Assembly: GCA_017458675.1 (NCBI GenBank)
Contig: JAFTAM010000032.1
Location: forward strand, 1 to 60,043
Length of the DNA stretch: 60,043 bases
Direction of reading: 5' to 3'
DNA from: a bacterium
GTDB lineage: Bacteria > Vulcanimicrobiota > Xenobia > Xenobiales > Xenobiaceae
A program made the translations under genes and the position numbers. The notes beneath the pieces were generated by a model. That model did no database searches, had not been told where the DNA came from, and saw only the letters and a list, made by a program, of their open reading frames with translations. Shown here in pieces: positions 32,542-46,542 of the stretch; position 1 is the first letter of the stretch, and the number at the start of each line of letters is the position of its first letter.

Positions 32542-33246
32542 TTATTTTTTTGCGGGCAGATTTTTTACCTTAATGGTCTTTTTGGCCTTTTGTCCGGTCT
32601 TCTGGGAAGAAGGTTTCTGGGCTGCCACTGAATTTTTCTGTTCCGGAGCGGCTACGGTAGGCTGATTGGGTACGCCTACCTTAGGCTGATTCGATTTTCC
32701 TATACTGGGTTGGTTAGGAACTCCGGCTGTAGGCTGATTGGGAATTCCTGCCGCGGGCTGGTTGGGAATCCCGGCGGCGGGCTGATTGGGAATCCCGGCG
32801 GCGGGCTGATTGGGAATTCCTGCCGCGGGCTGGTTGGGAATTCCTGCCGCTGGCTGACTGGGAATCCCCACGGCGGGCTGTTCGGGAATTCCGGCGGCGG
32901 GCTGCTGAGGGGTCCCCTTTTGAGCCAGCTGCATCTGGGGCTCGGGGCTTTGCGCGTTTTCAGCGCCTGCCTGCTGCGGGGCAAATTCAGTGCCCGGAGG
33001 GCCCTTGCGCGTCATTTCCGGGTTACGGTTCTCGGCGGGAGAGGGAGCTTGCGCGTCTGCCTGAGCGGGAGGCTGCGCTTCTGTCTGCGGCAGCGAACCG
33101 ACGCTGTTTTCTGCCGGCGCCGACGACGGAGAAGCCGAGGGCAAGGCGTTTTCCTGTTCTGCCGGCGGCTGGGGACCGGTGCAGGCCGCAGTAAACAGGC
33201 AGAGCGAACCTAAAAGACATATTGTTTTGGATGAAAATAATTTCAT
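32542..33246 (-). CDS. Pro-rich lipoprotein with 8-residue repeats, 234 aa
   Basis: A signal peptide ends in FTAAC, making Cys22 the likely lipidation site; Thr at -3 is slightly unusual. The mature protein is disordered in appearance: Pro/Ala/Gln-rich to residue 113, then eleven 8-residue units based on NQPAAGIP (114-201), then a Lys-rich tail. Such spacers commonly reach through the periplasm or wall, and the basic tail could bind an anionic polymer. No enzyme domain. It lies 66 bp upstream of the DsrE-like gene on the same strand. Confidence 0.82.
   Translation of the reverse strand: MKLFSSKTICLLGSLCLFTAACTGPQPPAEQENALPSASPSSAPAENSVGSLPQTEAQPPAQADAQAPSPAENRNPEMTRKGPPGTEFAPQQAGAENAQSPEPQMQLAQKGTPQQPAAGIPEQPAVGIPSQPAAGIPNQPAAGIPNQPAAGIPNQPAAGIPNQPAAGIPNQPTAGVPNQPSIGKSNQPKVGVPNQPTVAAPEQKNSVAAQKPSSQKTGQKAKKTIKVKNLPAKK
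32644..32907 (-). repeat. 24-bp coding tandem repeat (11 units)
   Basis: Eleven in-frame 24-bp units in the lipoprotein gene. The central ones are nearly identical (NQPAAGIP); both ends drift (EQPAVGIP, NQPSIGKS, NQPKVGVP, NQPTVAAP). The unit number is likely to vary between strains. Confidence 0.9.
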
Positions 33247-33367
33247 AACAACCTGTAATTAAAAAGATTTCAGTTCAGCGGTTTGTGTATTTAAAGCGGC
33301 AGAGCCCACGCCGGTATCTGAGCTGACAGCGGCGTGAGCCTGACGCTGTTTAGGTTAATACCCGGTT

Positions 33368-35071
33368 TTAATGGAGGAAGAGGTCGGCAAAGGCCTTGGG
33401 ACTGAGCTTTTCGCCGGTGCAGAGCTTGGTCAGATCCTGCCAGCCGTAACGGCCGCCGCGGAAGAATATCTCTTGATTCAGATATTCTCCTGCCTCCGGA
33501 TGGCCGTAAAGCGAGGTGTTCAGAGGCCTGTCTTCGCCCATAACATTTTTAGTTAAATAAGTATAGAACTGAGCGCCGAAGAGATCGCCCAGCATATAGT
33601 TGTGATAGTAAACGGGAGCGCCGACTATGTGCATTTTTGCGCCGTAATCCTGCCCGCTTAAATCCTCGGGCGGGGCCTGAAGCTGATATTTGGCTTTGAG
33701 ATCCCACCACAGTTTGTTCAAATCCTGTTCGGGATTAGCGTACATCTCTTTTTCAAAATGGAGCATGGTCTGAACCCAGCGGCTGAAGATCAGACGCTCT
33801 GCGCGCAGAAGCTGCCAGGAGGCCTGACTGTATTTCTCCAGATCCTTGCCCTGCAGTCCCAATACCTTGCTGAGGAAGTCCGGGGTGCGGGTCATTTCGC
33901 CGGTAAACATGGCCAGGCCTTCGGTGGTCAGAATGTGAGAGGGAGTTCTGAGCAAATAGGGCAGATTGGGATCGATTCCCTGATCGTAGAGACCGTGGCC
34001 GAGCTCGTGATTGACGGTGTCCATCCAGGCGCCGTTGGGTTTGACGTTGCAGAGCACGCGTATATCCTGCTTGCGGTCGATGCAGGTGGCGAAGGCATGA
34101 GGGCTCTTGCCGGGCTTTTCGTATAAATCGCTGCGGGCGATGATGGCGTCGGGATTGAGCCCCATGCTGTGATAATACTTCTGAGACAGCTTGACGGGAT
34201 CTTTGCCTTTATAGATATCATTTAAATTGAGCTCGGCAGCGTCGGTCAGCTCGGGCGCTTCCTGGAAGAAGAGATCTCCCAGATGCCAGGGACGCACCGG
34301 ATCGCTGTCTTTGAGGCCGAAGCGCCTGCGCTCAAAGGCGTCGATGGTCTGCTTCAGTTCTTTGAAGGGAGCGATGGTGAGCTTGTCCAGCTCGTCGAAC
34401 ATGGCGAAAAGCTCGGCTTCATCAAACTCCTGACAGTCGATCTGCATGGCGAAGTAATCGCGGTAGCCCAGCTGACGGGCCATTTTGTTGCGCAGAACGA
34501 CGAGCTTCCTGAGCGGCTCAGCCACCTTGCCGCCTACGGCCATATAGCCGCTCCAGGCGGCTTTGGCTTCCTTGTCGCTTTTAGTCTTTATCAGTACGTC
34601 TCTGACGTCGTTTTCCGTAAGCTCTTTGGAACCGACTTTGCTGCGGTGAGTGTTGAAGATTTTATCTACTTCGGCTTCCAGGGAGATTATCTGCTTGGTG
34701 GTTTCCGGATCGGCCTGATAGGGAAGGAACTCAAAATACATGATGTCGAGCTGGCGCTTCTCGATGGGATCGGAGATGGCTTTGCTGTCTCTCAGCCGTT
34801 TGAGCTGCTGAAATATTTCTTTGTTTTGGTGGAGCTTGGCCATGGCGTTGTCGGCCTTTTCGCGGCGGGCGTAAGCTGAATCCGCGCCGGTAGTGGCCGA
34901 TTCCCACCAGGCTTCGTTCGCCTCGCGCTGCAGGGGCTGCACCGCCGAAACATATTTATCGCGCAGAGCGCCGAACTGCTCCTGAGGAGTCTGAGCGGCC
35001 CAGGCCGCGGAAGATAACAGAGACGCGCCCAGTACAAAGGCCGCCAGACTTAGATGAAATTTTCCCAACAT
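33368..35071 (-). CDS. M2-family (ACE-like) exported metallopeptidase, 567 aa
   Basis: A signal peptide (about 1-26, AWAAQ) is followed by a helical protein of the usual length for bacterial M2 peptidyl-dipeptidases. The zinc motif HELGH lies at residues 355-359 and the third ligand Glu384 is 25 residues later (TTEGLAMF), the gluzincin arrangement. These enzymes take dipeptides off the C-terminus of peptides, here probably in the periplasm. GGAGGG precedes the ATG. The M3 family is an alternative, but the wording around the motif fits M2 better. Confidence 0.88.
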   Translation of the reverse strand: MLGKFHLSLAAFVLGASLLSSAAWAAQTPQEQFGALRDKYVSAVQPLQREANEAWWESATTGADSAYARREKADNAMAKLHQNKEIFQQLKRLRDSKAISDPIEKRQLDIMYFEFLPYQADPETTKQIISLEAEVDKIFNTHRSKVGSKELTENDVRDVLIKTKSDKEAKAAWSGYMAVGGKVAEPLRKLVVLRNKMARQLGYRDYFAMQIDCQEFDEAELFAMFDELDKLTIAPFKELKQTIDAFERRRFGLKDSDPVRPWHLGDLFFQEAPELTDAAELNLNDIYKGKDPVKLSQKYYHSMGLNPDAIIARSDLYEKPGKSPHAFATCIDRKQDIRVLCNVKPNGAWMDTVNHELGHGLYDQGIDPNLPYLLRTPSHILTTEGLAMFTGEMTRTPDFLSKVLGLQGKDLEKYSQASWQLLRAERLIFSRWVQTMLHFEKEMYANPEQDLNKLWWDLKAKYQLQAPPEDLSGQDYGAKMHIVGAPVYYHNYMLGDLFGAQFYTYLTKNVMGEDRPLNTSLYGHPEAGEYLNQEIFFRGGRYGWQDLTKLCTGEKLSPKAFADLFLH

Positions 35072-35661
35072 GTTTTCCCTCCGGAAGAATAAGGCGCCGA
35101 AGTTTTGCGCCCTCGCTTCCGCCTTTGAAGGCGGCTGCAGATTTACCTTGTATTATACAAAAATATCCGCTTAAAATACAGAGATATCCCGCAGGAAACT
35201 CATATATCGCCGCCCGGCTGTGCGCTTCCGGCTTTAATTGGTTGAAAAAATTTTTTTATCCCCTCTGAGCGGCCGAAGCTCCGCTCTGTCTGCCGCCAGG
35301 CAGACTGAGCGTCTCCGCCGGGAACGAAAGCATGAAAAGCGGAAGCGGCCGGAGGAGATTATCGAAGCGAGCTGCGCCGGTTCGCAAAACTGTGCGCTGA
35401 AGAAAAAAGTCTGAGCGAAGCCCAGCCGTACCGCTGCGTGAAAAACCAAGATTACAGGATAAGTTCTGCCGCATATTTGGCGGTCAAACTGCAGATTATA
35501 TTGTATAGCAGACAGACTGAAACAAATAGTTTACATATTAGCGAGAAATTCATAAATTACTATGATAAAATATATGCGGTGGAAATTTTATTACCGTTGT
35601 ATATTTAATTACGGCTATTGTGTATGCTCAATGCTCAGGCGAGGAGGTGAAAAACTCTCGA
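35072..35661. other. 590-bp intergenic region upstream of the RelA/SpoT triad
   Basis: No gene recognised. GC-rich part 35260-35410 contains a small perfect hairpin (GTCTGCC 35288-35294 with GGCAGAC 35299-35305). From 35500 it turns A/T-rich, with TATGATAAAAT at 35562-35572 as a possible -10 region but no clear -35. Promoters of both divergent neighbours must lie here. Confidence 0.4.
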
Positions 35662-37587
35662 ATGCTGGATGGATTTCGTTACGGCAGTCCGCTGCCCTAT
35701 GAATATTACTGCAATGTTTCAAAATTTCCTGATCTTGAGGCTCGTGTGCGCTGGCTGTCACGGTATCTCCCTCCTATTGAACGCCGTTTTCTCTGCGAAA
35801 AGGCCTACCCCTTTGCCAATAAATGGCACGAGGGCCAGACAAGGCAGTCCGGCGAGCCTTATATAGAGCATCCCGTCGCGGTTGCAGAGATACTGAGCAA
35901 GTATAATGTTCCGGTGTGGGTGCTGGCGGCGGCGCTGCTCCATGATACTTATGAGGACAGCGAAGGCAGGCTTAGCCTCGAGGTTATAGGCGACTTCTTC
36001 GGTCCTTATATGCGTTCGGCCATCGACGGCTTGACCAAGATCGGCAAGGCCAGTTCAAGACACCGCGCTTTTCTGGCTGAAAACCCGAATTTTAATGAAG
36101 CCTTGAATTCTTTGACTGCCAAGCGCCGCCGGGATATTCAGACCGAAATAAGGCTCAGCGCCAAGTGGGCCAAAATTAAGGACCAGATGGCTTCTCTGGC
36201 CAAGCTGCTGCTGGGCATGGCTGAAGAACCCACGGTTATGCTCATAAAAATCGCGGACAGGCTCCACAATATGCGCACGATGGCAAATATGCGCAAGGAT
36301 AAGCAAAAGCGGATTTCCCGCGATACCCTTAAGGTATATATTCCCATAGCCTGGCGCTTCGGCATCTGGGAAATGAAGACCGAACTGGAAAACCTTTGCT
36401 TCAGGTACTGTTATCCGGAGGTCTATAAGCGCTTTCAGGAAGAGGCGGTCCGGGTCCGGGAGCATCTCCGTCCCTATTGGACTAACCTCAGGGATAAGAT
36501 TGCCGAAGCTCTGGAGAAGGATTATATTGCCGCTGAAGTTTCTGTCGCCGCCAATTCCGATTATTCGGTTCTTTATCGCATGAAGAGCGGGAATTTGGTT
36601 CACAGCAAATTTCACGGCCTCAATTTTATCAGGATTTTAACAGATGATCCCGACCTTTGCCATCCGGCGATGGAGTGTCTGAAGAAGCTCTTCCGCTACG
36701 CGGACTGCCGGGATTATATCAGGCAGCCCAAGCTCAACGGCTATAAAGCTATACACATGAGCTTTGAAGACGCTGATTTCCCGGAAACAGAGTATCAGCT
36801 CATCGGCAGAAAGAAGATTCCCGCTTCCCGTTATGTGGACGTCCAGATCTGCAGCCGCGAGGATTATGAACGCAACAAAATCGGAGTCTTTTCCGTCTTT
36901 AAAGACAAACGCTGGCGCTGCGCCGACCAGCAGACGGTTCGGGGAAAGATTCGCGAGGACTGCGCTCCCTGGCTCAATTCCCTGCACAGCCTGCGTGAGA
37001 GCGCCGACAGCGACAGAGACTTCCTGGATTTGGTAATGAAAGAGAATTTAAACGAAAAAATCACCTGCTTCACTCCTAAGGGCGATGCGATAGCTCTGCC
37101 GATAGGTTCTACGCCTCTGGACTTTGCCTATATGGTCCACAGCGCTTTGGTTACCAGATGCAGCGGCTGTCTGGTCAATAACATGTCCGTATCGATCCTG
37201 GATTATAAGCTGAAGGACAACGATTTTGTAGAGATCCTTACCTCAGATGATGCCAGGCCGGACCGGATTTGGTATGACACGTGCTTTACAAAGAAGGTAA
37301 AACGGGTTCTGAGCAAATGGTTTCTTCAGAATTACAGCTCTGAAGCCAACATCAAGTACGGCAGCTTAATTATGGAGACTGTATTTGAAAGCGAAAGAGT
37401 CAGCGATCGGCTGCAGGACGAAGTTTTTAAGAGAGAACTGGCGCGCTTGTGCGGCTGTCAGGATACGAACAGCTTGCTGGTGCGGCTGGGCGCCCGGGAC
37501 CTGAGCGGCTCCCTGTTGGGCGAGAAGCTCAGAGAGCTGATCGCAGCCAGAGCTGAAACTCTGGTATCCGAAATTAACCCTCTTTGA
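35662..37587 (+). CDS. RelA/SpoT homologue 1: hydrolase intact, synthetase degenerate, 641 aa
   Basis: Long RSH protein. Its HD hydrolase domain (about 40-240) keeps the catalytic set: His70, HDxxED at 94-99, and Asp199/Asn203 in ADRLHN. The synthetase domain (about 290-415) is badly altered. The usual 'YDL-A-RII' Asp is His318, the 'EIQIRT' Glu is Asp393, 'HTT' is HMS, and the 'AAHW' block is gone. Tyr361 of the 'NGY' loop remains. A TGS domain follows (about 464-530), but there are no zinc-finger or ACT domains at the C-terminus. Expected role: (p)ppGpp breakdown only. The ATG at 35662 lies 14 bases after GAGGAGG; an upstream GTG at 35620 has no ribosome-binding site. First of three tandem RSH genes. 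Confidence 0.9.
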   Translation: MLDGFRYGSPLPYEYYCNVSKFPDLEARVRWLSRYLPPIERRFLCEKAYPFANKWHEGQTRQSGEPYIEHPVAVAEILSKYNVPVWVLAAALLHDTYEDSEGRLSLEVIGDFFGPYMRSAIDGLTKIGKASSRHRAFLAENPNFNEALNSLTAKRRRDIQTEIRLSAKWAKIKDQMASLAKLLLGMAEEPTVMLIKIADRLHNMRTMANMRKDKQKRISRDTLKVYIPIAWRFGIWEMKTELENLCFRYCYPEVYKRFQEEAVRVREHLRPYWTNLRDKIAEALEKDYIAAEVSVAANSDYSVLYRMKSGNLVHSKFHGLNFIRILTDDPDLCHPAMECLKKLFRYADCRDYIRQPKLNGYKAIHMSFEDADFPETEYQLIGRKKIPASRYVDVQICSREDYERNKIGVFSVFKDKRWRCADQQTVRGKIREDCAPWLNSLHSLRESADSDRDFLDLVMKENLNEKITCFTPKGDAIALPIGSTPLDFAYMVHSALVTRCSGCLVNNMSVSILDYKLKDNDFVEILTSDDARPDRIWYDTCFTKKVKRVLSKWFLQNYSSEANIKYGSLIMETVFESERVSDRLQDEVFKRELARLCGCQDTNSLLVRLGARDLSGSLLGEKLRELIAARAETLVSEINPL

Positions 37588-37900
37588 GCCGTCTTATTCG
37601 TGAAAGGTTCCGCCGCCGGCCGCGGCCCGGCTGAGGACGCTTATCAATTATATGCGGGCCGGAGACGCCGGCTCGGCGTCTCGCGTCTCCGCATGCCGGC
37701 CTCGTCATTTTATGGCTGCCGACGCCGACGGAACGGTTCAGCCCGCATAAAGTCCGGAGGAGGCGGACCTAGTTGGCCTCCTGTAAAAAAAACGGCCTGC
37801 GGAGAGGAAATAATTCGCAGGCCTTTGTATTCTTCTCTCGGTTGTTTTGAGTGATTAAGTATTATTTCAGCGCGCCGGAAGTTATGGAGGGAAATCTGAG
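37588..37900. other. Palindrome-rich spacer between RSH 1 and RSH 2
   Basis: 313 bp without a gene. 37604-37745 is very GC-rich with nested inverted repeats, for example GACGCC (37664-37669) with GGCGTC (37675-37680), enclosed by GGAGACG (37661-37667) with CGTCTCC (37684-37690), and GTTCCG with CGGAAC further out. A terminator-like hairpin follows at 37794. Confidence 0.55.
37794..37827 (+). terminator. Terminator or attenuator hairpin between RSH 1 and RSH 2
   Basis: GGCCTGCG (37794-37801) pairs perfectly with CGCAGGCC (37816-37823), followed by TTTG. The short T run suggests partial termination, so RSH 2 may be read at a lower level than RSH 1. Confidence 0.55.
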
Positions 37901-40300
37901 ATGACATATATTCCCAAGGGTGCGGATCCTGATTTCTTATTTGAAGAAAAGGGTCCGGAGTATCCGGAATTCGAAGAGATGGTCGCCAGATGTACGGTTC
38001 ATCTGCCGGAGGACCAGAGAAATTTTATTATAAATAAAGTATATCCCTATGCCAACTATTGGCATCAGAACCAGAAGCCCCGCAACAACGGCTTGCCTTA
38101 TATTTCCCATCCTGTTGAGGTGGCTGCGATTCTGGCGCCCTACAGGCTGGATGTTTCCAGTATGAGCGCCGCGCTTCTTCACGACGTGCATGAGGATAAC
38201 GAGGATCTGGTCAGCCTGGACGACATAGAGCGCGGCTTCGGTACCGATATCCGCAATTTGGTGGACGGTCTTACCAAGATAGGCAAAGCTACGGCCAGAA
38301 ACCGTCATGAAGCCGAAGCTCAGGCTGTTTTATCGGAGGTCTCCTCAGATCTGTCCGCCGCCATGTACGCCTCGCTGGGGCTCTTTGCTGGCTCGGCCGT
38401 GGACGTTGTCAAGCCGATATCGGCGGAGGAGCTTAAAGAGCGGGCCCGGCAGGCTAAGATTGACGATAAGGCGGCCAGCCTGACCAAGCTTGTCAACGAA
38501 ATGACCCGCGATTTACGGGTGATTATCGTGAAGCTGGCCGATAGAATCCACAATATGAGGACTTTGGGAGATATGCGCCTGGACAAGCGCATCCGCATTT
38601 CCCAGGAAACTTTGAGCTTTTTCGCGCCTTTGGCTACGCGTCTGGGAATATGGTCCTTCAAGACCGAGCTGGAGGATTTATGCTTTAAGTATATCGACGG
38701 CAAAAACTATGAGCGTCTGGGCATAGAGCTGGATGAAATCCGCAGCAGGAGAGCCGACAGTCTGAACGCCACCATGGATATTCTTGAGGAGGCTCTGGCC
38801 AGAGAAAACATCGAGGCGGAGATTTCGCTGCAGGCCAAGCACCGCTATTCGGTTCTGAATAAGATGCGCAGCCAGCATAAAACCTTAGATCAAATCTTTG
38901 ACTTGGATCCTATTATGGTGGTGGTGCGCGATAAAGACGTCTGCTATCAGGCTCTCAGGGTAATCCATCAGCGCTTCGGATTTCTGCAGGGACGCTTCCG
39001 CGATTATATCGCCAATCCCAAGGGCAATAACTATCAGGCTCTGCATACCACCATCAACGGCGTCAATAAGCAGCCTCTGGAGGTGCAGATCTGCACTCGG
39101 GAGGAGGAGGCGGAAAACCTCTACGGACTGCTGAACGTCTTTGTCAGCGGGAGATACCTGGATTCGGATATCCCGGACAATTTCAACAGCTCCTTCCGAC
39201 CCTTTATGCCCTGGCTGGCCTCCCTGAACCATGTTAAGGAGGAATCGGAGGGCGATCAGGACTTTATTGACGTTCTGTGTCAGGAGGAGCTCGCCGCCGA
39301 TATCGTCTGCTATACGCCCGAAGGCAGGCGGATAGAGCTTCCCGTTGGTTCCAAGCCTCTGGATTTTGCCTTTAAGATTCACAGTGAGCTGGGCCTGAAA
39401 TGCTGCGGCGCTATCGTCAATGACAGAGAGGTCTCTCTTACCGACTATGAGCTGGGACGGGACGATATCGTTCAGTTAATCACCGACGACGACTGCCGCC
39501 CTTCCCGCAGCTGGTATGCCAAGTGCCGCACCCGCTACGCCAAAAACCGCATCAGCCGCTGGTTTCTGAAGCATGAATCTCCGGAGCCCAATCAGTCGAT
39601 AGGCTTTAAGCTGGTCTGCGCCGAGCTCATCCGTCAGGGGGCGGCCGGAACTCAGAACAACTCAGAAATCATGCTGACCCTGTCCCGTTCTCTGGGCTGC
39701 AAGAGCGTTGAAGAACTCTACCGGGCAGTGGGCAGCTATAAGGTTTCTGCCGCCAATTTCGGCAAGGTTCTGAAGAAGTACAGAGAGAGCAATCCGCAGA
39801 AGTTTGCCATGCTCAATGCGGCGCCCACGCGTCTGGACGAGGTTTCGCTTTCTGTGCGCATCGACAATATCCCTGACGCTCATGTTTTTGTCTGCCGCAG
39901 CTGCAATCCGGTTTTCGGCGATATGATTAAGGCTGTAAAAGGCGGCAAGGACAAGGGCTATTTTATCCACCGCCGCGGCTGCAAGCGTCTGCAGGAGGCC
40001 GAGGAGACGGGAGGGGATATTTATGCTTCAGAGTGGATCGCCGGGGTGGATCCCAAACTGTTCATGCTTAAAGCCTGTCTGTCGATCAAGGCGCTGGTGC
40101 GCTACGGGCTTTCGCACGATATTATCGCTACCTTTGACAACCGCAACATATTGATATACAATTACCGCTTTGAGAACGACTATGTGCGCAACGTAACGGC
40201 TATAAAGATAGAGGTGGGAGCAGAATCTTTGGATACGCTCGACGGCCTCATGGAGCATCTTAAAACCGTTGACGGCGTAGTGACGGTCGAACGCGTGTAG
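37901..40300 (+). CDS. RelA/SpoT homologue 2: hydrolase intact, synthetase partly altered, 799 aa
   Basis: HD domain complete: His70, HDxxED at 94-99, Asp214 and Asn218. It carries an insert of some 45 residues (about 135-185) absent from usual RSH proteins. In the synthetase domain several key residues remain (Asp334, Tyr378, His382, Glu394, 'GRFRDYIANPK'). But the Arg of 'YSIYRKM' is Asn320 (YSVLNKM), the 'RII' Arg is Met, and the 'MH--AE-GIAAHW' block is replaced by an unrelated 'EEEAENLYGLL' stretch. TGS about 464-530. Cysteine pair CRSC (665-668) and 'HRRGC' form the conserved-cysteine domain; an ACT-like end follows. Probably a hydrolase with weak or no synthesis. GGAGGG precedes the ATG. 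Confidence 0.9.
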   Translation: MTYIPKGADPDFLFEEKGPEYPEFEEMVARCTVHLPEDQRNFIINKVYPYANYWHQNQKPRNNGLPYISHPVEVAAILAPYRLDVSSMSAALLHDVHEDNEDLVSLDDIERGFGTDIRNLVDGLTKIGKATARNRHEAEAQAVLSEVSSDLSAAMYASLGLFAGSAVDVVKPISAEELKERARQAKIDDKAASLTKLVNEMTRDLRVIIVKLADRIHNMRTLGDMRLDKRIRISQETLSFFAPLATRLGIWSFKTELEDLCFKYIDGKNYERLGIELDEIRSRRADSLNATMDILEEALARENIEAEISLQAKHRYSVLNKMRSQHKTLDQIFDLDPIMVVVRDKDVCYQALRVIHQRFGFLQGRFRDYIANPKGNNYQALHTTINGVNKQPLEVQICTREEEAENLYGLLNVFVSGRYLDSDIPDNFNSSFRPFMPWLASLNHVKEESEGDQDFIDVLCQEELAADIVCYTPEGRRIELPVGSKPLDFAFKIHSELGLKCCGAIVNDREVSLTDYELGRDDIVQLITDDDCRPSRSWYAKCRTRYAKNRISRWFLKHESPEPNQSIGFKLVCAELIRQGAAGTQNNSEIMLTLSRSLGCKSVEELYRAVGSYKVSAANFGKVLKKYRESNPQKFAMLNAAPTRLDEVSLSVRIDNIPDAHVFVCRSCNPVFGDMIKAVKGGKDKGYFIHRRGCKRLQEAEETGGDIYASEWIAGVDPKLFMLKACLSIKALVRYGLSHDIIATFDNRNILIYNYRFENDYVRNVTAIKIEVGAESLDTLDGLMEHLKTVDGVVTVERV

Positions 40301-40545
40301 CCTTTGACCGGATTAACGTGAACGGCCGCTTTGAGCGGCCTTGCCCGCCCCGGGCCCGCTTCGCTGGTCCGGGGCGTTTATGCGCGCCGTCTTGAATCCG
40401 CTTGCGTCCTTGCCGCGCGGGATGGGCCGCTCGGAACCGAACCGGGTCTGCATGGAATCCGCAGGTTTTTCAAGCGGCGCGGCATTCGGCCGGGCCGCCT
40501 CTTTCGGCTCGCCGGCCGTTAAGATTTTTTTGTAAGTAAAGTATT
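40301..40545. other. Palindrome-rich spacer between RSH 2 and RSH 3
   Basis: 245 bp without a gene, very GC-rich. Two clear hairpins: GGCCGCT (40324-40330) with AGCGGCC (40334-40340), and CGCCCCGG (40346-40353) with CCGGGGCG (40369-40376). Neither is followed by a real T run, so transcript protection or pausing is as likely as termination. Confidence 0.55.
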
Positions 40546-42861
40546 ATGGATAAAGCTGCTGCAGAAGAAAAAAAAGCCGCTGCCGCTTCTTTTGCTATTA
40601 AGGAAGATTTCGCTCTGACCGATTATGAACAGAGAGCGCGCGGGGAAATTTTGAAAAGCGTCGATTATCTGGACGCTGAAGGTTTGAATTTGGTAAAAAG
40701 GGCTATGGACTGCGCCATTCAGGCGCATCGGGGTAGTCTGCGTCTGTCCGGCGAGCCTTATATAAGCCATGTATTTGAGGTCGTCAAAATTCTGACAGCC
40801 TATAAGCTCGACGCTTATACGCTGGCAACCGGCTTTCTGCACGACGTTCTTGAAGAAAAGACTCCGGTAACTTCCGAGTTTATCCGGATGACCTTCGGAA
40901 AAGAGCTGTCTTCTCTGGTGGACGACGTCACCCGGCTCACCGGCCTTTTTTCCCGGCAGGAACATGAAGTCCGCCGTTTCAGCGAAAATGTGCATATCGG
41001 CCGCGCCGCCTCTACAGAAAATCTGCGGCGCATCTTTCTGGCCATGGTTCGCGATCTCCGGGTCATCCTGGTCAAATTTGCCGACAGGCTGCACAATCTG
41101 AGAACTCTGGAATACTGCGAGCCTTCGGTGCAGAAGACGATCGCTCTGGAAAGTCTGGACATTTTTGCTCCCATCGCTTCGCGTTTAGGCATTTGGGAAT
41201 TTAAGGCGGAAATTGAAAATTTGGCCTTTCGGTATGCCTATCCGGAAGAATTTGCGCGTCTGAACCGCGATTTGGATCAGGTTCGGCCCATGTTTGTTAA
41301 GGTTCTGGAGAAGGTCGTTACGGCGGTGCGCGGCCGCCTGGACTCGATGCATATCAATAATAAGGTGGAGTACCGCTTTAAGAACCTTTACAGCATATAC
41401 CGCAAGATGGCGCGCACCGGCAAGCGGCTTTCCGAGGTCTATGATCTGGCGGCTCTGCGCATTATTGTGCCCACGGTGGAAGACTGCTATATGATTTTCG
41501 GAGTCATTCATTCGCTGTGGTCGCCCATGAACGGGCGCATCAAGGACTATATAGCCCGTCCCAAGAGCAACAATTACCGCTGCCTGCATACTACGGTGTT
41601 CGGCCCCGACGATGTGCCTCTGGAAATTCAGATCCGCACCTTCGATATGCACAAGGTCAACGAAATAGGCGTGGCCGCCCACTGGGCCTACAAGGAAGGC
41701 AAATCCGCGGCCGGACAAAAGAACAAGAGCATTTTCGCTCAGCTTTACCCCTGGATTCGCGGTCTCTTCGACGCTCAGGGCGACAGCGGCGATTCCGATG
41801 TCAGCGAGCATGTTAAGGTGGAGCTGATGAAGCGCGAGGTGTTTGTCTTTACGCCTCAGGGAGACGTCATAGACCTGCCGGCCGGCTCGACGCCCATCGA
41901 CTTTGCTTACCGGATTCACACCGACGTCGGTTCCAAATGCGTAGGCGCTACCGTAAACGGGCGCATGGTTCCTCTTACTTATAAGCTGGTCAACGCCGAC
42001 GTAGTGAGCATACAGACCTCTAAAAACGGCAAACCCTCCCGCGATTGGCTGCGCGTGTGCGCCAGCCATCAGGCCCTGAGCAAGATCAGAGCCTGGTTTA
42101 AAAAGGAATGCCGCGAGGAAAATCTGCAGCGAGGCCGCGAGGCCTTGAAGGCGGAGCTGAAAAGGCTCCATGCCGAAGAGCTTTTCAATAACGAAGAGGC
42201 GATGCTTAAAGCGGCCAATCAGCTGAGTTTTGTTACCGTTGACGATATGCTGGCCGGCATCGGCTACGGCGAATATTCGGCGGTGCAGATCGCGGGCAGG
42301 CTGCAGGGACTGGCAGCCAAGCCTCAGGCCGCTCCCAGAGTCTCGGAGCTCTTCCCCAGCTCGGAGCCGGAACCGGCTGCGCCTGCCGTCAGGAAATCCA
42401 AGCCCGGCCGGGAAATTGCCGTTGAAGGCATGGATACCATTCTGACAAAGCTGGCTCATTGCTGCACTCCCGTTCCCGGCGACAGCATTATCGGCTATAT
42501 AACCATAGGCAGCGGCGTTTCTGTACACCGCTCCGACTGCAGCAATCTTCTGAATCTGAAGGCCAAAAATCCCGGACGGATAGTCAACTGCAGCTGGAAT
42601 AAGCAGGAGTCTTCCGAAGGCCGCTATACCGTACAGGCTGCTGTCGAAGCCTGGGACAGAAGCGGACTGATGGCCGATCTTCTCTCCTGTCTGGGAGATT
42701 TGAGGATTAAAGTTAAGTCCTGTCAGGGCTTCAGCAGCGGAAACAGGGCGCAGGTAAAAATAACCATAGAGGTAACCGGCAGCGAAGAAATGGAGACAGC
42801 TTTAAAGGCTCTGCGGGGAGTTCGCTCCGTAATTTTCGCCCGGCGTGTAAAATCCAAATAA
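40546..42861 (+). CDS. RelA/SpoT homologue 3: synthetase intact, hydrolase motif altered, 771 aa
   Basis: The classic Rel layout: HD domain (about 40-220), synthetase (about 270-390), TGS (about 427-490), conserved-cysteine domain with HCCTPVPGD (about 634-642), and ACT (about 690-768). The synthetase site is complete: Arg286, Asp300, Tyr344, His348, Glu360 and the AAHW block. In the HD domain His75, His99-Asp100, Asp180 and Asn184 remain, but HDxxED reads HDVLEE, i.e. Asp104 is Glu, and the Pro after His75 is Val. It should make (p)ppGpp; hydrolysis may be weakened. The ribosome-binding site is poor. Last of the three tandem genes. Confidence 0.93.
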   Translation: MDKAAAEEKKAAAASFAIKEDFALTDYEQRARGEILKSVDYLDAEGLNLVKRAMDCAIQAHRGSLRLSGEPYISHVFEVVKILTAYKLDAYTLATGFLHDVLEEKTPVTSEFIRMTFGKELSSLVDDVTRLTGLFSRQEHEVRRFSENVHIGRAASTENLRRIFLAMVRDLRVILVKFADRLHNLRTLEYCEPSVQKTIALESLDIFAPIASRLGIWEFKAEIENLAFRYAYPEEFARLNRDLDQVRPMFVKVLEKVVTAVRGRLDSMHINNKVEYRFKNLYSIYRKMARTGKRLSEVYDLAALRIIVPTVEDCYMIFGVIHSLWSPMNGRIKDYIARPKSNNYRCLHTTVFGPDDVPLEIQIRTFDMHKVNEIGVAAHWAYKEGKSAAGQKNKSIFAQLYPWIRGLFDAQGDSGDSDVSEHVKVELMKREVFVFTPQGDVIDLPAGSTPIDFAYRIHTDVGSKCVGATVNGRMVPLTYKLVNADVVSIQTSKNGKPSRDWLRVCASHQALSKIRAWFKKECREENLQRGREALKAELKRLHAEELFNNEEAMLKAANQLSFVTVDDMLAGIGYGEYSAVQIAGRLQGLAAKPQAAPRVSELFPSSEPEPAAPAVRKSKPGREIAVEGMDTILTKLAHCCTPVPGDSIIGYITIGSGVSVHRSDCSNLLNLKAKNPGRIVNCSWNKQESSEGRYTVQAAVEAWDRSGLMADLLSCLGDLRIKVKSCQGFSSGNRAQVKITIEVTGSEEMETALKALRGVRSVIFARRVKSK

Positions 42862-42862
42862 T

Positions 42863-42900
42863 AAAACTGCCGTTCCCCGATATCGGCGGGACGGCAGTTC
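42863..42900. terminator. Terminator between RSH 3 and the MarR gene
   Basis: AACTGCCGT (42865-42873) pairs with ACGGCAGTT (42891-42899), with an inner CCGATATCGG. On the minus strand it is followed by TTTATTATTT, so it mainly ends the leftward MarR gene. Confidence 0.7.
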
Positions 42901-42921
42901 GGCTGAAGCGTCAGATGCGTA

Positions 42922-43464
42922 TTATTTGCTCAGCTTCAGGGCTTGTTTTATTTTATTCAGCGATTCTTTCAGAGCTTCTAATTTTTCTTCGTAATCGCGC
43001 TGCATTTCAGGAGTAATATTGCTGACCATGTCTGCCATAGCTTTTTGAGCTTTTTGCAGAACCTGACGGCCGGTATCGTTTATCGATAGCAGCTTAAGGC
43101 GGCCGGTGTAGTTTATTTCCTGAGCCCAACGGTTTTCTTCAATCAATACCTTCATATTGCGGCACATGGTGGCGGTATCGACATTTAAATGATTGGCCAG
43201 CTCAATCTGAGAAACTCCTTCGGGCTTGCGTCCCTTTTTAGCTTCTTCGCACCAGCTGAGATCGTTGAGGGCTTCCAGTACGGCAATCTGTGTAGCCCTT
43301 ATTTTCATAATCAATTCATGCTTAGCATTGCCCGTGTATTTCTCGATGGTAATTTTGGGCATGTTCTGATTGTAAATTCTGGTCAGGTCTCTGGAAAGCT
43401 TGCGCAGTTCTGCTGTATAGTCGTACTGCAGCTGATTGTTTGCAGTGCGTTCGTCGTCGTTCAT
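42922..43464 (-). CDS. MarR-family transcriptional regulator, 180 aa
   Basis: A winged helix-turn-helix with the MarR pattern 'QIELANHLNVDTATMCRNMKVL' split over recognition helix and wing, flanked by long helices for dimerisation. A C-terminal helical extension of about 40 residues is Lys/Glu-rich. MarR proteins are usually repressors released by small ligands and often control the neighbouring divergent gene, here dtd and the response regulator, 187 bp away. It converges on the RSH triad. AAGGAG precedes the ATG. Confidence 0.87.
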   Translation of the reverse strand: MNDDERTANNQLQYDYTAELRKLSRDLTRIYNQNMPKITIEKYTGNAKHELIMKIRATQIAVLEALNDLSWCEEAKKGRKPEGVSQIELANHLNVDTATMCRNMKVLIEENRWAQEINYTGRLKLLSINDTGRQVLQKAQKAMADMVSNITPEMQRDYEEKLEALKESLNKIKQALKLSK

Positions 43465-43651
43465 AATCTTTTCTCCTTGCCGAAAGGCGGGGTAAAACGA
43501 GTACGGCGCGTGATTTTATCTTTTGTTTGTTTCCCCCTGCAATTTCTAAGCAAAAATTCGTGATTTTGTATGCTTTTTTTTTCTGATATGCCCTCGAGCG
43601 CGCTTTTCTGCTAAGCAGGTGTATGAAGGGTTTTTGCAAAAAATATAAATT

Positions 43652-44110
43652 ATGCGTGCAGTAATTCAAAGAGTAGCTTCTGCCAGCGTTGAGGTTGACG
43701 GAAAAATCATAGGCAGTATAGGCCCCGGTCTTTTAGTTCTGGCGGCGGTTCATAAGTCGGATGCGGAGCCTGCGGCGGAATGGCTGGCTCAAAAAATTGT
43801 CGGTCTGCGTCTGTTTAAGGATGACGAAGACAAGATGAATCTGAGCGTTCAGGATATCGGGGGAGAAATACTGATTGTTTCTCAGTTTACTTTATATGCC
43901 GACTGCAGGCGCGGCCGCCGCCCCAGCTACGGAGAATCCGCCGACCCGGATAAAGCCAAAGCTCTTTACGATTATTTTGTGAAATGCGTGCGTTCCTGCG
44001 GTATAAATACTCAGGAAGGTCAGTTCCAGGCTCACATGAAAGTGCAGCTTCTCAATGACGGTCCGGTTACGGTTATTGTCGATTCTCCCGAAGCGAAGGC
44101 GGAGGCTTAA
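43652..44110 (+). CDS. dtd: D-aminoacyl-tRNA deacylase, 152 aa
   Basis: Both DTD active-site motifs are present: SQFTLYAD (about 75-82) and the NDGPVT loop (about 134-139). The length is that of the family. The enzyme removes D-amino acids (and glycine mischarged on tRNA-Ala) from tRNA. Its stop codon is followed at once by the ATG of the response regulator, so the two are translated together. Confidence 0.96.
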   Translation: MRAVIQRVASASVEVDGKIIGSIGPGLLVLAAVHKSDAEPAAEWLAQKIVGLRLFKDDEDKMNLSVQDIGGEILIVSQFTLYADCRRGRRPSYGESADPDKAKALYDYFVKCVRSCGINTQEGQFQAHMKVQLLNDGPVTVIVDSPEAKAEA

Positions 44111-44515
44111 ATGGCTTATACTGTTTTAGTTGTCAACGATTCCCGCTATCTGCGCGAAAATCTGCGCGAGCTTTTGGAAAAGGCGGGCTGCGAAGTCGTC
44201 GATACCGACAACGGTATTTCTGCGGTTACTCTGTATTCAAGAATTAAACCCGATTTGGTCATGCTCGACGTTCTCATGCCGGATCAGGACGGCATAGAAA
44301 CTCTCAAGCAGATACTGAATGTCGATAAGAATGCCAATGTGGTTATGGTAACGGATTTCGGACTGGAAAATTATCTCCTGGAGGCCCGTGAACTGGGCGC
44401 CAGCGGCTGCATTATCAAGCCCTTCAAACTCAAGCATCTTAAAAAGGTCCTGGCCGGAGTATTGGACGAAGAATATTTCTATGAGGACGAAAACAGCGAT
44501 TATTACCGCTATTAG
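44111..44515 (+). CDS. Single-domain response regulator (CheY-like), 134 aa
   Basis: A receiver domain only: Asp53 as phosphate acceptor in MLDVLMPDQDG, Thr81, and Lys103 in IIKPF. The usual N-terminal acidic pair is Asn9-Asp10. No output domain; a short acidic, Tyr-rich tail follows. Such proteins act by binding partners, as CheY and Spo0F do. No histidine kinase is in the window. The ATG abuts the dtd stop codon, and GGAGG lies inside the end of dtd. The stop codon overlaps that of the convergent thiN. Confidence 0.92.
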   Translation: MAYTVLVVNDSRYLRENLRELLEKAGCEVVDTDNGISAVTLYSRIKPDLVMLDVLMPDQDGIETLKQILNVDKNANVVMVTDFGLENYLLEARELGASGCIIKPFKLKHLKKVLAGVLDEEYFYEDENSDYYRY

Positions 44516-45180
44516 CCGGTAATAATTAAGACGGCCCGTCCCTGGGAAACTCTTACCGAAGCTTCCTCTTCGGTAATTAAGTTGGACAGAGTTCTGGTGG
44601 AGCTTCGGCAGATTATCTCATCCTGCAGAGGCCATTTCACACCTTTAATGTCGGCTGTTATCTGTTCGTCCAGGGCGATTAGAGAGAGCAGGCTGCCGCT
44701 GCGGCCGCAGATGAGGCGGCTTTTATTTTTCAGCTGCATTATTTCGCAGCTTTCTTCTCTCAGACAGGCGTCTATGCCCATTTCCTCGGCTTTTTGCAAA
44801 ATGGCTATAATATTGAACAGGCTATGATCCCAGCGCCCTCCCAGTCCGCCCAAAATGAGCGCCTGAGCGATTCCCCGCTTCCGGCAGACGTCTAAGGACG
44901 CTTCCAGGTCGCTGAAGTCCTTGTCCCGGCTGAAGGCAATACTCTCCCGGCATTGAGAGGCCGCTTTATTCAGCGCTTCCGAACTTATAGAATCGAAGTC
45001 GCCTAAAAGAACGTGAATGGGAATTTGGGCGTTCAGGGCCGACTCGGCGCCGCTGTCAGCGGCTATTACCAGATCGCCGGGACGGTAGGCGGATTTAATA
45101 AAAAAATTCCCCGGCTTCCGGCCGCCGGCTAAAATAAGAGCTCGTGAATATTTGGCGCTGTTTGAACCGGAAAAGGACAC
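44512..45180 (-). CDS. thiN: Thiamine pyrophosphokinase, 222 aa, GTG start
   Basis: Family motifs: AADSGAESAL (about 41-50), LLGDFDSI (about 58-65), the acidic DKDFSDLEASL (about 85-95) and GGLGGRWDH (about 111-119). The enzyme converts thiamine to thiamine diphosphate. The GTG at 45180 has AAGGAG eight to nine bases upstream, so it is accepted as the start. The thiamine transporter ThiT is the next gene upstream, giving an uptake-and-activation pair. Confidence 0.93.
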   Translation of the reverse strand: MSFSGSNSAKYSRALILAGGRKPGNFFIKSAYRPGDLVIAADSGAESALNAQIPIHVLLGDFDSISSEALNKAASQCRESIAFSRDKDFSDLEASLDVCRKRGIAQALILGGLGGRWDHSLFNIIAILQKAEEMGIDACLREESCEIMQLKNKSRLICGRSGSLLSLIALDEQITADIKGVKWPLQDEIICRSSTRTLSNLITEEEASVRVSQGRAVLIITG

Positions 45181-45333
45181 GGAAATATCTCCTTGTCTTG
45201 CAGGGGAGTATCTTTCCCCGCATTTTTATTCTCAGCGAAGCAGGAGCGTCTGAGCTTTTTGTTTCTCGGCCGTTTTTACTGACAATAATTGCGAAAAAAG
45301 TTTTGGCGGGTCAAAATTATGCTCAGGCAAAAA

Positions 45334-45879
45334 TTATTTGCGGAAACGCTGCTTCAAGCTGTCGGCAGCAATAGGAACCAGAATCAGAGCTATGACTGAG
45401 GGCAGAGCTAAAAAGGAAGCGTTATAGCTGAGAGAGACTAGCCAGACGGAGCCGCTCTGCGGCTGCGCGTTCAGAAAAACGTCGGCAAAAATTACGCCTG
45501 ACAGAGTGTGCATAAAGAGTCTGCCCAGTATGCCGGCCGCAATGCCAAGATGCGGAAGGCTCTTAAACGCCTGCAGCCCGCTCAGCGCTAAAATTCCGTA
45601 AGCCAGAGGATAGTCGAGCAGCATCTGGAGCAGATTGAAAACTACAGGTTCCTGCATAATATGCAGAAATCCGAACAGGACGCCTGCGTAAAAACCTGCT
45701 TTGAAGCCGCGTTTTCGGGCCAGAAGCAGAAGCGGCAGCATTTCCAGAGAGATCTGGCCGCCAAAGGGAAGGGGCGAAAAGCAAAAAAGGGCCAGCAATA
45801 ATGAAAGGGCGATGACTATGCCTGTTTCGGCAATAGCTCGCCCTGAAGCTTTGGTATGATCTGGCATATCGGCAGCCAT
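45334..45879 (-). CDS. thiT: ECF thiamine transporter S-component ThiT, 181 aa
   Basis: Six membrane segments with the ThiT elements 'GGQISLEMLPLLL' and 'LDYPLAYGILAL', the latter part of the thiamine-binding site and a marker of the family. It needs the general ECF energising module (EcfA, EcfA', EcfT), which is not in the window. It follows rpmB by 22 bp on the same strand, so it may share that promoter. I looked for a TPP riboswitch upstream and saw none. Confidence 0.9.
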   Translation of the reverse strand: MAADMPDHTKASGRAIAETGIVIALSLLLALFCFSPLPFGGQISLEMLPLLLLARKRGFKAGFYAGVLFGFLHIMQEPVVFNLLQMLLDYPLAYGILALSGLQAFKSLPHLGIAAGILGRLFMHTLSGVIFADVFLNAQPQSGSVWLVSLSYNASFLALPSVIALILVPIAADSLKQRFRK

Positions 45880-45901
45880 ATCGCCATAGAAAATCTGTAG
45901 C

Positions 45902-46096
45902 TTATTCGGCGCTCATAGAACGTTTTAAAGAACGCATGCAGCGGGTGCAGACCTTCACGGATTTGGGGGCGCCTTTTACCATGAAGCTGACTTTCATCAG
46001 ATTAGGAAGCCAGCGGCGGCGGGTGTGGCGATTGGAGTGGCTCACTAAGTTGCCGGTGGTAGGGCCTTTGCCGCATAACTCGCAAACTTTAGACAT
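45902..46096 (-). CDS. rpmB: 50S ribosomal protein L28, 64 aa
   Basis: Starts MSKVCELCGKGPTTGN with the ATG at 46096, preceded by AGGAGG; the longer frame to 46138 is not needed. Two cysteine pairs (Cys5/Cys8 and Cys50/Cys53) make this the zinc-binding form. The basic middle 'SNRHTRRRWLPNL' is typical. Confidence 0.97.
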   Translation of the reverse strand: MSKVCELCGKGPTTGNLVSHSNRHTRRRWLPNLMKVSFMVKGAPKSVKVCTRCMRSLKRSMSAE

Positions 46097-46542
46097 TACT
46101 TTTGTTCCTCCTGTATGTCCGTGCTCTTCTGTGCGCACGGTTCCGGGGAGCCGGACGAACGAGAAAAACTAAAAAAAGCTGTTCATCATAATATATATGC
46201 ACGATAACAGCCCGAATATTTTAGCATATTGCTTCTCCAATGTCCAGGACTGTCAAAAAAGTTTACAGTTTTTTTTAGGCGGCCGTTTTAAAAAGCCGCA
46301 CTCGGCTTTGCCGCGCCTCCGGGGGGCGCTTGACTGCCGCCGTCCTGAACCTTGGAAGTATAAGCCGCCCGGCGCTCGGAACGGCGGCGCGGCTATCCGA
46401 AGCGGCGGATCCGGAAGCGAGCGGACCCGCGACGCAGATTATTTCGGCTTTTATAGGCTGAAATTGAGCTGCGGCTGTCCTTTATCGGCAAACTTATGAT
46501 AAAATGCCATTAAGATTATATATTGTTAGCGAGGCAGAGTTT
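46097..46542. other. 446-bp intergenic region
   Basis: No gene is visible. 46280-46440 is GC-rich with many CGGC/GCCG words, like the RSH spacers. TATGATAAAAT at 46495-46505 precedes the next gene and matches the same string at 35562; it may be a -10 region, but no -35 is clear. The rpmB promoter must also lie here. Confidence 0.4.

Follow-up and report, generated by a model that had tools for sequence, protein, structure and literature searches.

A tandem array of three long RelA/SpoT homologues points to a probable independent division of a bifunctional Rel

Complementary loss of activity between long RelA/SpoT homologues (RSHs) has already been described in Moraxellaceae, as the pair RelA[hS] and SpoT[Hs] (PMC9974481, PMC3153485). 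Synthesis and hydrolysis are fully split between the two proteins, and the hydrolase retains a folded, inactive pseudo-synthetase; the SpoT of A. baumannii is an experimentally proven hydrolase-only long RSH whose pseudo-synthetase is regulatory (PMC9974481). E. coli RelA and SpoT are likewise synthetase-dominant and hydrolase-dominant long RSHs from Rel, with SpoT retaining an intact synthetase site and weak synthesis. In Bacteroidetes, an independent lineage-specific duplication produced Rel and RshB (P. gingivalis; PMC6994654), with hydrolase residues missing from one copy and RshB remaining bifunctional.

The locus described here resembles these systems in principle and differs from them in several respects. 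It holds three genes, in contrast to the pairs of Moraxellaceae and Bacteroidetes. The synthetase sites of its RSH1 and RSH2 are both broken, unlike that of E. coli SpoT, and the hydrolase motif of its RSH3 reads HDxxEE, whereas the HD domain of RelA is fully degraded (FPLADA in E. coli). A search limited to open-licence literature found no paper on a tandem array of long RSHs. The original prediction that such an array had not been described therefore held within that search, although the principle of complementary loss was known; the three-gene array with two pseudo-synthetase paralogues appears to be new.

The three genes lie side by side on the forward strand of a window of 60,043 nucleotides, the whole stretch of DNA that was analysed (Table 1). 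Open reading frames and RSH domain matches both bear out the number, lengths and common strand originally proposed. A hairpin and T-rich sequence, recognized by eye, follow RSH1, making it possible that RSH1 and RSH2 are separate transcripts in this genome. This hairpin was not called by a promoter and terminator scan, which gave no useful signal, and an Rfam search of 33000-46500 returned no family. Further upstream, we noted a putative lipoprotein in which near-identical PNQPAAGI units follow one another (32542-33246, reverse strand), a protein that looks secreted and carries YVTN beta-propeller repeats (TIGR02276; 29558-31156, reverse strand) and a 906-residue open reading frame with no Pfam match (25670-28387, forward strand).

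Table 1 Positions of the RSH genes, the gaps between them and their neighbours in the window
Feature	Position	Strand	Remarks
M3-family peptidase	33368..35071	-	Divergent from RSH1; also adjoins RSH1 in G001 (74% identity)
RSH1	35662..37587	+	641 aa from ATG; frame opens at GTG, 35620
RSH1-RSH2 intergenic gap	37588..37900	.	313 bp, 57% GC; hairpin then T-rich sequence, by eye
RSH2	37901..40300	+	799 aa
RSH2-RSH3 intergenic gap	40301..40545	.	245 bp, 63% GC; 7-pair GC hairpin directly 3' of the RSH2 stop
RSH3	40546..42861	+	771 aa
dtd, D-aminoacyl-tRNA deacylase	43652..44110	+	Ancestral rel neighbour across the phylum
Response regulator receiver protein (RR)	44111..44515	+	Part of the rel-dtd-RR-thiN-thiT neighbourhood
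Thiamine diphosphokinase (thiN)	44512..45180	-	Conserved neighbour
ThiT-like thiamine transporter component	45334..45879	-	Conserved neighbour

All three proteins exceed the Pfam cut-offs for HD_4, RelA_SpoT and TGS, in the order of long RSHs, and thus belong to that superfamily; only RSH3 exceeds the TIGR00691 cut-off. An ACT domain is present in RSH2 and RSH3. The proposal of three full-length homologues is not exact as regards RSH1, in which the HD domain, a degenerate pseudo-synthetase, TGS and a helical domain are followed by the end of the protein, with neither zinc finger nor ACT/RRM; in another genus the orthologous frame is 888 residues long and includes an ACT domain. RSH2 consists of HD, pseudo-synthetase, TGS, an altered zinc finger and ACT. 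None of the three has the residue pattern of a bifunctional Rel [HS], since RSH1 and RSH2 depart from it at the synthetase site and RSH3 at HDxxED, L154 and K158.

The genome from which the window derives (3.28 Mb in 196 contigs, 90% complete) encodes RelA_SpoT domains in these three proteins only, and a search with this domain found no single-domain synthetase in the assembly. RSH3 is therefore the only candidate synthetase. In the same genome, a 166-residue open reading frame (G000:C182:2510-2716) has a weak HD_4 match and may be a small alarmone hydrolase.

The host family comprises uncultured, mostly rumen bacteria. A second species and a second genus of this family share the array, and in a third genus RSH3 is accompanied by at least one, degenerate, RSH. 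In G001, from the genus of the window, RSH1-RSH2 run off one contig end and RSH3 begins near the end of another contig; in G004, from another genus, RSH1 and the N-terminal part of RSH2 lie at one contig end and the C-terminal part of RSH2 with RSH3 at another. The contig breaks in both genomes fall where the array order predicts. A contig search with two short RSH2 peptide patterns recovered only these two genomes, at 58-61% identity, with generic Rels at about 30%. In G003, from the third genus, the contig starts inside the HD motif (DVYED) of the degenerate RSH directly upstream of RSH3. We observed that the HD part of this gene and its remainder (L037:1-2110) are in two frames split near base 150, through either misassembly or a genuine frameshift, and that most of the checked positions of its synthetase site are broken. 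An annotation or frame artefact was rejected for the array, as unbroken reading frames recur in independent genomes, and its presence in other species argues against a chance arrangement.

We found no RSH1 or RSH2 orthologues in four genomes of a fourth, sister genus (g2), one of which, G006 (72% complete), also lacked a full-length Rel match. Side observations in g2 were a 425-residue open reading frame whose single RelA_SpoT domain is divergent and a separate HD_4 frame of about 285 residues, neither seen in the array genomes (g2 positions G002:C74:12904-13257, G006:C267:17422-17775 and G007:C343:5576-5929). The array was likewise absent from the other relatives inspected, where the single Rel, when seen, occupies the same rel-dtd locus with no second RSH; in G005 of g2 the gene upstream of Rel encodes a polysaccharide-synthesis protein. 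Such Rels share the locus and domain order of RSH3 and differ in having canonical HDxxED and no RSH1 or RSH2 beside them. Every locus at family, order or class level that offers enough flank has dtd downstream of rel, and in several, those of g2 and more distant classes among them, dtd is in turn followed by RR-thiN-thiT. Because RSH3 occupies this ancestral neighbourhood, we take it to be the ancestral Rel, with RSH1 and RSH2 as upstream additions.

The trees agree with this assignment in grouping RSH3 with its family's Rels and in uniting RSH1 and RSH2 in one clade. Given the long branches, an in-family or array-only position of this clade was not rejected (p-AU 0.49) and grouping with E. 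coli or cyanobacterial rows was weakly disfavoured (p-AU 0.075). RSH1 and RSH2 may have arisen by tandem duplication, not transfer; the grouping of RSH1 with RSH2 and the ancestral status of RSH3 by position and tree speak against three independent transfers.

We compared active-site residues in an alignment with E. coli SpoT and RelA and with relatives, and mapped them onto A. baumannii SpoT positions with published mutants (PMC9974481; this numbering is used for hydrolase residues below). The synthetase of RSH3 is complete, being intact at all 22 of 22 checked positions, and the predicted HDxxEE is present as HDVLEE (D83E). Two further changes that the prediction had missed, L154C and K158V (Cys191 and Val195 in the RSH3 of the window), accompany D83E in the RSH3 of four of four array genomes; all three are absent from G005 and G007 of g2, which have the canonical set. 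We rejected HDxxEE as an ordinary variant of the phylum: of 55 RSH rows, most of them from the phylum, only the RSH3s of the four array genomes carry it. The remaining sampled phylum Rels keep HDxxED except for G016, a class-level relative (61% complete), whose Rel (G016:C4:7775-9562, locus L047) has HGVAEP for HDxxED, K158T and an intact synthetase, and reads as a separate, independent hydrolase loss. A change at R161 of RSH3 was dropped as evidence of hydrolase loss, as many single Rels of the phylum have Ala, Ser or Thr there.

On the ribosome side, RSH3 has RIKD, the TGS His, an intact CC-H-C zinc finger and ACT, and its identity to orthologues does not drop between the HD and synthetase domains. 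The combination of full synthetase site, ribosome-binding zinc finger and altered hydrolase site is that of RelA[hS], and on these residues RSH3 is a predicted RelA-like synthetase. It is not an orthologue of beta/gamma-proteobacterial RelA, since it groups with its own family's Rels and has RIKD, not the acidic ExDD.

RSH3 may retain some hydrolysis, because D83E is conservative, the metal ligands H54, H78, D79 and D143 are intact, as is E82, and ordinary Rels of the phylum also vary at R161. The intact ligands and the conservative D83E could support a stronger claim, that RSH3 is still a bifunctional Rel in which HDxxEE hydrolyses, with RSH1 and RSH2 adding hydrolase capacity or serving other conditions; the partial splits of Bacteroidetes Rel/RshB (PMC6994654) offer a precedent. 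Yet the three changes occur together in every array genome and not in the sister genus, and in A. baumannii SpoT Ala at Y51, E82, D83 or N147 abolishes hydrolysis and Ala at R45 abrogates it (PMC9974481). We regard a bifunctional RSH3 as possible, if on balance unlikely. The likelihoods we attach to the different readings are not exclusive, and this one gives RSH1 and RSH2 roles that overlap with those in the reading we prefer.

RSH1 shows the opposite pattern. The alignment agrees with the prediction that its hydrolase set is intact: R45, Y51, H54, H78, D79, E82 and D83, together with K140, D143, R144, N147, T150, K158 and R161, are invariant in three genomes. Loss of the synthetase Asp was also correctly predicted, while the residue was not, as the aligned one is Gly319 and His318 precedes it. 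The window protein further has Asp393 for Glu, no AAHW block (both as predicted), no Arg/Lys of GRPKH and Cys for the Arg of QIRT. In Rel_Seq numbering, which like that of T. thermophilus was carried over from motif positions and PMC9974481, not from structure superposition, three of three genomes have lost R241, K243, E323, R327 and the AAHW block, and two of three D264. Orthologues of RSH1 score under the RelA_SpoT Pfam cut-off, and their identity is 51–55% in the HD domain vs 29–31% in the synthetase (95/174 vs 50/163 identities, Fisher p=1e-5; p about 1e-5 to 3e-5 over the range). This drop, confined to the synthetase domain, makes it look like a drifting scaffold. In an AlphaFold2 model (pLDDT 82) the Rel catalytic fold is kept, and the N-terminal domains resemble S. 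aureus Rel 7oiw (TMt 0.88). RSH1 thus clearly has the SpoT[Hs] pattern, HD catalytic residues kept and synthetase residues lost, in three genomes, and is a predicted hydrolase.

It could be argued that RSH1 and RSH2 are decaying, pseudogene-like copies without function, given the fast evolution of RSH1, the loss of its C-terminus in the genus of the window and the apparent frameshift in the G003 partner of RSH3. This we find scarcely credible in view of reading frames that stay open over 640-888 codons in the three genomes that carry the two genes and of HD catalytic residues that are all unchanged where covered.

RSH2 keeps the same 14 HD residues unchanged wherever the sequence covers them. 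As predicted, its synthetase in the window lacks the Arg of YSIYRKM (Asn320) and the AAHW block; Met339 also replaces R277 (T. thermophilus numbering, by motif position) and QIRT is QICT, while the catalytic Asp334, Glu394 and Gln396 are kept. Across genomes, R277, R327 and AAHW are lost in all and R241 in two of three, and D264, E323, Q325, K304, N306, Y308 and H312 (Rel_Seq numbering, likewise by motif position) are retained. The hydrolase side of the SpoT[Hs] pattern is therefore complete in RSH2 and the synthetase side partial, as Asp, Glu and Gln remain. With these retained, RSH2 may carry out weak (p)ppGpp synthesis. A. baumannii SpoT, in contrast, has lost both the catalytic Asp and the guanine-stacking Tyr that RSH2 keeps. 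Orthologues share 62% identity in the HD domain and 66% in the synthetase, and the lack of a drop relative to HD indicates that the pseudo-synthetase is constrained. The AlphaFold2 model (pLDDT 83) keeps the Rel catalytic fold, with N-terminal domains resembling pppGpp-bound Rel 7oiw (TMt 0.92). Retention of guanine-side and catalytic residues (K304, N306, Y308, H312, E323 and D264) and loss of the adenosine side (R277 and the AAHW block) suggest a nucleotide sensor, so that RSH2 would be a hydrolase with possible nucleotide sensing.

The HD domains of RSH1 and RSH2 also carry a very long alpha6-alpha7 loop, of 50–76 residues vs 21–42 in the other aligned proteins; between anchors it measures 57 and 72 residues in the window RSH1 and RSH2, vs 21 in E. 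coli SpoT. SpoT[Hs] proteins, in contrast, have a short loop. Extra loops near the HD site might accompany a shifted substrate, such as (p)ppApp, NADPH or another 3'-phosphate nucleotide, in which case the array would not be a ppGpp on/off pair. HD-domain relatives, the MESH1-type enzymes, act on several nucleotides. Both proteins nevertheless retain R45, which stacks on guanine, and K140, R144, K158 and R161, which bind phosphate, and we consider a changed substrate highly improbable.

Neither such loops nor the presence of two hydrolase-type copies would be expected of a simple copy of SpoT, and for this reason a regulatory or hetero-oligomeric role is a live alternative. RSH1 and RSH2 might act mainly as regulators of synthesis by RSH3, which they would tune as decoys or in hetero-oligomers by binding to RSH3 itself or to ribosomes/tRNA; their HD activity would then be secondary. 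The alpha6-alpha7 region is known to control RelA synthesis (PMC8012599), the tandem order is kept even with different flanking genes, the RSH2 pseudo-synthetase is conserved, and neither zinc finger nor ACT is present in RSH1 of the window genus. Full invariance of the RSH1 catalytic residues while its synthetase drifts instead fits selection for hydrolysis, and the cell needs some hydrolase if the HD domain of RSH3 is dead; a mainly regulatory role thus seems unlikely to us. We think it decidedly unlikely that RSH1, RSH2 and RSH3 assemble into a hetero-oligomer that works as a dedicated alarmone machine, in which the RSH2 guanine half-site senses GTP/ppGpp and RSH1 and RSH2 both hydrolyse ppGpp and gate RSH3 on the ribosome. 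Synthesis and hydrolysis would then be coupled across three separate polypeptides.

We propose that the array is probably an independent, three-gene tandem subfunctionalisation of a bifunctional Rel, similar to that of RelA and SpoT. RSH3, in the ancestral rel-dtd locus, would be a synthetase of (p)ppGpp linked to the ribosome, with its own hydrolase site weakened or lost as in RelA[hS]. RSH1 and RSH2, the extra copies inserted upstream, would have kept Mn-dependent (p)ppGpp hydrolysis and lost synthesis, as in SpoT[Hs]. The RSH2 synthetase fold would serve as a regulatory pseudo-domain that could sense G-nucleotides and tune hydrolysis, that of RSH1 merely as a drifting scaffold, and the steady ppGpp level would be set by RSH3 synthesis against RSH1 and RSH2 hydrolysis. 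The original proposal of one dedicated synthetase and two hydrolases is supported as a prediction from residue conservation in three or four genomes. Its complementary loss is also seen, in that RSH3 HD changes occur only in genomes carrying the partners, and RSH1 and RSH2 pair invariant HD residues with broken, not intact, synthetase sites. The losses fall on a single stem branch, so their correlation counts as one evolutionary event.

In another phylum, the array apparently repeats the RelA/SpoT split independently, and close relatives with an unsplit Rel at the same locus provide a before-and-after series for the division of a bifunctional enzyme. It raises the question of why two hydrolase-type copies stand beside one synthetase, and the HDxxEE of RSH3 asks whether Glu can stand in for the catalytic Asp. 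RSH2, as a natural half-site that keeps the guanine side and has lost the adenosine side, may offer a test of pseudo-synthetase domains as nucleotide sensors.
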